NCBI GenBank assembly: GCA_030427885.1 | Contig: JAUICM010000006.1 | Coordinates: forward strand, 248,001 to 312,000 | Source: Rhodothermia bacterium | GTDB taxonomy: Bacteria; Bacteroidota; Rhodothermia; Balneolales; Balneolaceae | Direction of reading: 5' to 3' | DNA length: 64,000 nucleotides | Part shown: positions 62,660-63,501 of the stretch, piece by piece | How the letters are laid out: every line of letters starts with the position of its first letter | Position numbering within the stretch: the first letter of the stretch is position 1 | The notes under the pieces: generated by a model | Told to the model about the DNA's origin: nothing | Databases searched by the model: none | Seen by the model: the letters and a program-made list of their open reading frames with translations, nothing else | Program-made: the position numbers and the translations under genes

Positions 62660-62742
62660 GTCATGCCGGATTTGATCTGGCTTCTCGAGGGATGGGTTTG
62701 GGAGGCCGTTTAGGGAGACCCCGCATCGGAGTGCGGGGTGAC
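62660..62742 (+). repeat. Double-hairpin extragenic repeat, copy 1
   Basis: An 83-bp unit that starts gtcatgccgga and ends gtgcggggtgac. It has a first hairpin around gccggatttgatctggc and a second around accccgcatcggagtgcggggt. The unit is the same as copies 2 and 3 (62810 and 63257), in the same orientation, with more change in the linker than in the stems. Confidence 0.85.
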
Positions 62743-62809
62743 GGGTGAATGAAGGGAGTACGGAGTTTATTTCACATATTATTAAGTACAGCCATGCAGT
62801 TAAAGAATA

Positions 62810-62892
62810 GTCATACCGGACTTGATCCGGTATCTCAGGGACTCGGTTTGGGAGCCAGATCAATAAGAGCTCGCATCAGGGTGCGAGGTGAC
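62810..62892 (+). repeat. Double-hairpin extragenic repeat, copy 2
   Basis: An 83-bp unit from gtcataccgga to gtgcgaggtgac. The stems have compensating changes relative to the other copies: taccgga pairs with tccggta, and the second stem agctcgca pairs imperfectly with tgcgaggt. It ends 8 bp before the stop codon of the GIY-YIG gene. Confidence 0.85.
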
Positions 62893-62900
62893 GGTATATT

Positions 62901-63191
62901 TCAGCAATAAATATCATTCCAAAGATCGTCGAATTCAGGATTTATGCTTTTAATCAGATCAATTTTCCATTCCCTTTTCCATTTCTTTACTTTCTTTTCA
63001 GCAGAGATGGCTTCATACATAGTTGGAAATTCTTCATAGTAAAGAAGTTCATGTACATTATACTTCTTGGTGAATTTCGATCCGTTTTCAAATTTATGCT
63101 GATAGATTCTCTGTTGCAGATCTGAGGTTACTCCTGTGTAAAACACAGTTCTTCTTTTGTTTGACAAAATATAGATCCAACCCGATTTCAT
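62901..63191 (-). CDS. Small GIY-YIG nuclease domain protein
   Basis: A 96-aa single-domain protein of the GIY-YIG superfamily (YhbQ/UPF0213 branch, COG2827 type). The start is the ATG at 63189-63191 (MKSGWIYILSNKRRTVFYTG); an in-frame upstream ATG adds 15 residues of no conservation. Active-site elements are complete: Tyr7 (GWIYIL), Tyr18-Thr-Gly20, Arg28 and His32 in QQRIYQHK, Glu65 in ISAEKKVKKW and Asn84 in INPEFDDLW. It should nick or cut DNA, probably structured or single-stranded substrates. It sits snugly between repeat copies 2 and 3 (8 and 65 bp away). Such a pairing may be functional. Confidence 0.88.
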   Translation of the reverse strand: MKSGWIYILSNKRRTVFYTGVTSDLQQRIYQHKFENGSKFTKKYNVHELLYYEEFPTMYEAISAEKKVKKWKREWKIDLIKSINPEFDDLWNDIYC

Positions 63192-63256
63192 ATTATTAAG
63201 ACCGTTTAGAGATGAAATCCTTACAACCTGATTCAAATTTACCTTAATACAAGAAT

Positions 63257-63338
63257 GTCATGCCGGACCTGATCCGGCATCTCAGGGAATATGCCTTGAG
63301 ACAGGTCACGGAGACCCCGCATCGGGGTGCGGGGTGAC
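63257..63338 (+). repeat. Double-hairpin extragenic repeat, copy 3
   Basis: An 82-bp unit from gtcatgccgga to gtgcggggtgac. The first stem is tgccgga/tccggca and the second accccgca/tgcggggt, both perfect. It lies upstream of the GIY-YIG start. The following 63339-63501 has no recognised element; the next gene begins at 63502. Confidence 0.85.
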
Positions 63339-63501
63339 TGGTAGGTAAAGGACTCGAGTTACTGATGAGTCCAAACATCCCTCGCAAAATCCCCTGAACA
63401 GTGATTTTGATCTCCCTTCAAAGGGAGACTTTTTCGCTTAACTCATAGTTATAGCTTTAACACGCTAATTTCTTTATATATGGTTGAATAAATTTCAGTC
63501 A

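Follow-up and report, generated by a model that had tools for sequence, protein, structure and literature searches.

A small GIY-YIG nuclease gene lies packed between copies of a double-hairpin repeat in this stretch of Balneolaceae DNA, and the question raised by the locus is whether the nuclease is the partner enzyme of the repeat. RAYT enzymes are thought to multiply and disperse GTAG REPs, and an analogous role had been proposed in the earlier note for the GIY-YIG protein. The window here means the whole stretch of 64,000 nucleotides that was analysed.

Repeats and nuclease gene in the window

The features of the locus, with positions counted from the first letter of the window, are as follows.

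62660 to 62745, no strand assigned: double hairpin, copy 1, with a REP hairpin at 62660-62686 (plus strand, stem partly decayed) and an opposed REP hairpin at 62715-62742 (minus strand)
62810 to 62895, no strand assigned: double hairpin, copy 2, with a REP hairpin at 62810-62836 (plus strand, GTCATACCGGACTTGATCCGGTATC) and an opposed hairpin at 62866-62892 (minus strand)
62901 to 63191, minus strand: GIY-YIG nuclease gene, 96 amino acids from ATG, with the catalytic Y, Y, R, H, E and N conserved
63196 to 63225, minus strand: upstream box TGTAAGGATTTCATCTCTAAACGGTCTTAA, one mismatch from TGTAAGG-N17-TCTTAC
63257 to 63341, no strand assigned: double hairpin, copy 3, with a REP hairpin at 63257-63283 (plus strand, GTCATGCCGGACCTGATCCGGCATC) and an opposed hairpin at 63311-63338 (minus strand)

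The three same-orientation units of about 83 bp with two hairpins each, as first described, were found again on re-analysis. As single-stranded DNA every copy forms two hairpins (z = -2.9, -3.4 and -3.5 for copies 1, 2 and 3), and shuffled sequences folded equally well in 3/200, 0/200 and 0/200 cases, respectively. Differences between the copies keep the stems paired (GCCGGA/TCCGGC versus ACCGGA/TCCGGT), again in agreement with the first reading, the first hairpin of copy 1 being the partly decayed one. The hint of selection for structure drawn from these stems was matched by covariation in alphaproteobacterial REPs lying upstream of related genes, where seven of nine stem pairs covary in a set chosen mostly by position and not by pairing. 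A fourth copy of the double unit lies just outside the window (contig position 312779, equivalent to about 64779), and a pattern search of the home genome returned only these four full double units. The double unit is clustered near the GIY-YIG gene and not dispersed, a point against the mobile unit proposed below. Single related hairpins are dispersed in the home genome: 12 have up to three mismatches and a wider pattern picks up 23, where each control gave 0. A search of Rfam gave nothing above threshold.

Each double hairpin consists of two CGTC-type REPs that face opposite ways, GTCATnCCGGA.. on the plus strand and GTCACCCCGCAC.. on the minus strand. CGTC REPs are short, often paired palindromes with a CGTC/TGTC tag, a stem of 8-9 bp starting from AT and a loop of 4-5 nt; they have been reported from Alphaproteobacteria, Bacteroidetes and other phyla and include RPE-4/RPE-6 of Rickettsia and dRS3 of Neisseria (Di Nocera et al. 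2013, PMC3733652). The tag at one end may be CGTC, TGTC or CCTC, and most of the unpaired tails fit CCA (PMC3733652). Every palindrome in the window is built as GTCA[TC]-stem-loop-stem-TC, in agreement with this CGTC-tagged superfamily. Hairpin 1, ATACCGGA-CTTGA-TCCGGTAT, has a TGTC or AGTC tag together with the stem and loop lengths typical of CGTC REPs; hairpin 2 has a CGTC or AGTC tag and a stem beginning with AC.

The gene was confirmed to lie between copies 2 and 3 with its stop 8 bp from copy 2, and its product matches the GIY-YIG domain PF01541 (E 1.9e-18). Translation probably starts at the ATG at 63191, with the conserved box just upstream, and less likely at an upstream TTG giving 111 amino acids. 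Residues Y7, Y18, R28, H32, E65 and N84 are invariant in A2, and their catalytic role is presumably that of the equivalent residues of I-TevI. The nearest solved relatives by sequence are the UPF0213 / COG2827 proteins of PDB entries 1ZG2 and 1YWL (E 7e-12 and 9e-8), which together with the Pfam match make the predicted fold clear. No match at E <= 1e-3 was found among the PADLOC models of anti-phage defence.

Association of REPs with one clade of GIY-YIG genes

The home genome encodes 16 GIY-YIG domains, and several of the small ones are bracketed by short repeats of different families; relatives were collected because of this bracketing. The main set consisted of 108 GIY-YIG relatives, eight from the home genome and 100 from other genomes within its family, order and class, most of the latter including 6 kb of sequence to either side, and these loci are not fully independent. 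A palindrome was taken to be the tag GTCA[TC] followed by a 5-bp arm, a spacer of at most about 35 nt, the complement of that arm and C[TC]. Within 300 bp, such palindromes occur on both sides of 69/108 genes and on one side of 17/108, that is, at 86/108 loci, and the remaining 22/108 have no REP by this tag-based definition. Over the 50 bp nearest the gene the palindromes number 7.2 per kb, against 0.15 per kb at 1.6-6 kb. Under a strict palindrome definition 33 genes are bracketed, and the nearest two palindromes are opposed in 29 of the 33. Several clades of the main set have REPs with longer, imperfect loops.

A second set was obtained with a Sinorhizobium protein as query and comprised 80 loci from named genomes, mostly of alphaproteobacteria, of which 79 were usable. 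REPs lie on both sides in 44/79 and one REP is present in 20/79 of these loci; the bracketed loci show the opposed (+/-) arrangement in 38 of 44 cases, and REP density is 10.3 versus 0.035 per kb. The tags are mostly CGTC/TGTC in both the relatives and the alphaproteobacteria, and the tail is CCA in alphaproteobacteria and CTC or CTT in the host family, Balneolaceae. Homologues usually located without repeats nearby, an outcome set against the proposal when it was made, were not what was found: repeats adjoin 86/108 genes (<=300 bp) in one set and 64/79 (<=250 bp) in the other.

A joint gathering of REPs and small genes in gene-poor stretches would be in keeping with the intergenic position of both REPs and cassettes. 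This explanation is refuted, however, by control ORFs of the same loci, of which only 1/386 has palindromes on both sides, and by reversed sequences, in which almost none occur; fixed gene-to-REP distances and opposed REP orientation also stand against it, and we regard it as extremely improbable.

Other small GIY-YIG families of related genomes, REP-rich ones included (UPF0213-like and others), had a REP nearby in 0/20 cases, and UvrC genes of related genomes in 0/5. Since none of the 20 other small genes has REPs, the association is confined to one clade and is not a property of GIY-YIG domains or of small genes generally. A different small GIY-YIG group in one genome (L011, L012, L013 and L020 of G000) adjoins tRNA-like sequences, and some of its genes are flanked by direct repeats that correspond to a tRNA 3' end, an association unlike that with REPs.

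The expectation that genomes with the gene would be enriched in repeats held overall (Fisher p = 6.6e-10 among 146 genomes) and within one family (p = 1.2e-5), and the number of REPs rises with the nuclease across genomes. It did not hold everywhere, as nine genomes have at least five REPs but not this clade; one of them, G077, has 96 hits and is 97% complete. The REPs are therefore not strictly dependent on the gene. Such REP-rich genomes still carry other GIY-YIG proteins (UPF0213-like, other small types, UvrC and fusions).

Nuclease clades and their repeat families

Protein identity and repeat similarity were compared over 86 loci after removal of syntenic pairs and were correlated (Mantel r 0.50). 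When repeats were shuffled among loci within each genome, the observed correlation was reached in 0/2000 shuffles, the maximum being 0.32. Paralogues of the same genome with less than 50% identity have unlike repeats (mean similarity 0.47) and similar nucleases from different genomes have like ones (0.76); the clade of the nuclease is a better guide to the repeat family than the genome in which it lies. On the tree the clades have the repeat types TTTCGA.., CTGAGGATACC.., CTCCGAGG.., CTGAACTTG.. (in either orientation) and CCCTGCGAAGGC.., and the type around the place of the window protein is CCGGxC... A cassette moving as one piece would by itself give part of this coupling, which therefore marks the pair as a unit and leaves the reading of the repeat by the enzyme as a separate matter.

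These results bear on the reading closest to the RAYT analogy, in which the GIY-YIG enzyme acts in trans and itself multiplies and disperses CGTC REPs. Clade-specific repeats, the rise in REP number with the nuclease and opposed REP pairs, as in REPINs, all speak for it. On the other side, some REP-rich genomes are without the clade, GIY-YIG domains are not known to perform strand transfer, and a single new REP insertion was not directly seen. We consider this reading possible but doubtful.

Mobility of the REP-gene-REP unit

Copies at unrelated loci have the cassette in common and nothing outside it. In three alphaproteobacterial genomes, copies duplicated within the genome have 375-449 bp in common beginning at a CGTC tag, and the homology runs from the tag of one REP to the other REP or shortly beyond. 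Two copies in Rhizobium leguminosarum Norway are 100% identical over 392 bp, and their upstream REPs differ in one base of the loop, in the tail and in one stem pair, where the change is compensated. The simplest reading of this case is that the gene and one REP were placed beside a different resident REP.

Occupied and empty sites were also seen between relatives. At one locus the cassette is present in four related genomes, and in a fifth the flanks are joined around a short decayed hairpin. For the bare cassette, gain and loss are not polarised, and its one clean absence (G027) could be a loss.

A derived version of the unit was found within other REPs.

L136 (G057:C17) and L189-L197: E1 element of about 525 bp with 26-bp imperfect terminal inverted repeats (TIRs; TGTAGATGT..), its sole gene a GIY-YIG nuclease

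E1 lies inside other REPs exactly 5 nt past GTC, with a 5-bp target duplication (ATTTC), and the uninterrupted REP is present at empty sites in G036, G016 and G052. TIRs, target duplication and a clean empty site, the marks of a TIR transposon, were thus found together in the E1 version only. Gene-less derivatives of 147 bp are joined within the REP hairpin, and several contig ends fall within E1. A pure TIR transposon was considered as the general case and rejected, since most cassettes end at REPs and not at TIRs.

Because E1 has its own TIRs and 5-bp duplications, another transposase may move this version. More generally, the nuclease could be cargo or an unrelated host gene trapped among the repeats that does nothing to REPs, and the cassettes would then owe their movement to a different enzyme or to recombination among REPs. 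The TIRs and 5-bp duplications of E1, which are typical of a transposase acting in trans, and the integron-like and IS200-type enzymes of the same genome would suit this explanation. We nevertheless judge it unlikely, as only this GIY-YIG clade is embedded and not other small genes, the pairing of clade and repeat persists across phyla and diverse repeat types, and purifying selection acts on the protein, also where non-orthologous copies are compared (dN/dS mostly 0.02-0.4, with a few low-count pairs higher).

Several of the REPs concerned (L194-L197 and L136) contain a perfect palindrome, TCCGCCAGCTGGCGGA, in the loop, as if a second small palindrome had been inserted. An unrelated repeat family of about 95 bp has dozens of copies in the same genus (L136:5300-7100, query positions 1116-1214). 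In G023 two near-identical GIY-YIG cassettes (L097 and L098) have flanks resembling integron attC sites (TAACGACCCGGCGTTTAAGCGGCGC and GTTAGGTGC), and REP-nuclease units may travel in integron cassettes in this case.

Upstream box and putative regulon

The box TGTAAGG-N17-TCTTAC has 19 exact matches in the home genome against 0 in the control, and its spacing is strict, a one-base shift reducing the matches to chance level. It is common to other GIY-YIG genes of Balneolaceae. Exact copies in the home genome also stand upstream of ssb, recQ, an integron integrase, an IS200-family transposase, a WYL regulator and 23S-IVP genes; copies with one mismatch stand upstream of comEC, comM/yifB, radC and a DUF559 nuclease-like gene, and in related genomes the box precedes recA, ssb and radC (loci besides the window: L316, L306, L309, L314, L345, L347 and L348; L366 and L375). 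L305, the gene for the WYL-domain protein, is itself preceded by the box.

An RNA hairpin in the gene leader was considered and rejected: the 3' half of the box varies (TCTTAC, TCATAC, TCTAAC) without a matching change, and the box precedes unrelated genes. With that candidate gone, the box reads as a promoter or operator. Because it precedes comEC, comM/yifB, radC, recA, ssb, recQ and the integron integrase, it probably marks a regulon of DNA uptake and recombination, the link to competence being drawn from the common box and the gene names. IS200-type transposases and integron integrases both act on folded single strands, and co-regulation with them is a further point for an enzyme that disperses REPs itself.

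The regulon also admits a host function, in which the nuclease trims or resolves REP hairpins and cruciforms during DNA uptake or repair and the repeats are regulatory or guard sites and not mobile ends. The box common to recA, ssb, recQ, radC, comEC and comM and the purifying selection on the protein agree with such a role. The clade is, however, patchy between close relatives, with up to 12 copies per genome, some copies are pseudogenised, and copies lie at unrelated sites, so a host function is decidedly unlikely as the explanation.

Proposed mechanism and relation to known systems

The locus is probably one copy of a widespread mobile REP-gene-REP unit whose nuclease gains entry to further REPs through cuts made in or beside them, perhaps while DNA is being taken up. 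The nuclease would recognise its own REP family, probably as the folded hairpin or the adjoining tag, and would nick or cut there. Repair from a REP-flanked copy as template would then leave the gene beside another REP, in the manner of a free-standing homing endonuclease. In Balneolaceae the gene would probably be switched on together with ComEC, ComM, RecA, SSB and RadC, when hairpin-folding single-stranded DNA enters. The embedding in REPs and the mobility of this selfish unit are shown; cutting at REPs is suggested by the domain, the conserved catalytic residues, the pairing of clade and repeat and the exact ends of the unit. Two points make us prefer this homing-like route to one in which the enzyme disperses REPs: genomes without the gene still have REPs, and at a new site the resident REP is apparently retained.

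The proposal of the earlier note is supported, with two adjustments: the partner is the single CGTC REP and not the double unit as such, and the anatomy points more to a gene inserting itself at REPs than to an enzyme dispersing them.

Like REP/RAYT systems (REPtrons, REPINs), the unit consists of a small enzyme gene bracketed by palindromes, with enzyme clade and repeat family evolving together. Unlike them, it has an unrelated GIY-YIG enzyme (PF01541) in place of a Y1 HUH protein (Y1_Tnp) and the tag GTCA[TC]/CGTC throughout in place of GTAG, and dispersal of REPs by the enzyme is here only a candidate role. With free-standing GIY-YIG homing endonucleases (phage Seg, I-TevI, I-BmoI) it shares the catalytic domain and residues and the habit of a selfish gene apparently inserting at a defined target; there is, however, no intron or intein, and the presumed target is a dispersed and diverse palindrome flanking the gene on both sides and not one conserved site. 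The unit is therefore neither a REPtron, having the wrong enzyme and the wrong tag, nor a classical homing endonuclease, yet it resembles both. The UPF0213 / COG2827 proteins are its nearest solved relatives, but UPF0213-like genes of related genomes have no adjoining REPs. E1 and its 147-bp derivatives share TIRs, 5-bp target duplications and location in REPs with MITEs and REP-targeting insertion sequences, but E1 has no DDE or HUH transposase, the GIY-YIG nuclease being its only gene.

CGTC REPs apparently have no dedicated transposase, a question that was left open in their description, where GIY-YIG proteins are not mentioned (Di Nocera et al. 2013, PMC3733652). The repeats studied here have the same tag, stem, loop and pairing, and differ in being paired with a clade of nuclease genes and, in the host family, in also including longer-loop types and in mostly ending with CTC or CTT instead of CCA. 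In the open-access literature, to which the search was confined (subscription journals lay outside it), no paper was found that links GIY-YIG genes to CGTC REPs or to any REPs, and papers on COG2827 and RIME elements gave no such link either. CGTC REPs thus gain a first candidate enzyme, and a clade sitting at the core of CGTC REPs, with its own repeat family for each subfamily, makes the question of a dedicated enzyme testable. The role proposed would provide a function for a gene that is very common and whose annotation says no more than "GIY-YIG nuclease family protein", and in Balneolaceae it would tie the expression of DNA-uptake genes to mobile elements that depend on hairpins (REPs, integron cassettes and IS200-type elements).

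The larger claim is of an undescribed class of element, in which GIY-YIG nucleases use folded single-stranded CGTC REPs as target and as ends, are made together with the DNA-uptake machinery and spread CGTC REPs across several phyla. We put this somewhat short of an even chance; if true, GIY-YIG nucleases, with their origin in an unrelated enzyme, would be the equivalent of RAYTs that has long been looked for.

Relatives of the gene with related flanks are also carried by plasmid records from Azospirillum, Shinella, Neorhizobium, Sphingobium, Aeromonas, Photobacterium, Planktothrix and Spirosoma, which span alpha- and gammaproteobacteria, a cyanobacterium and Spirosoma. A cassette lies between sufB and sufC in Azospirillum (L165) and in one Shinella record (L175), the latter placement being read from the flanking sequence of an unannotated record, and the REPs of the two differ.
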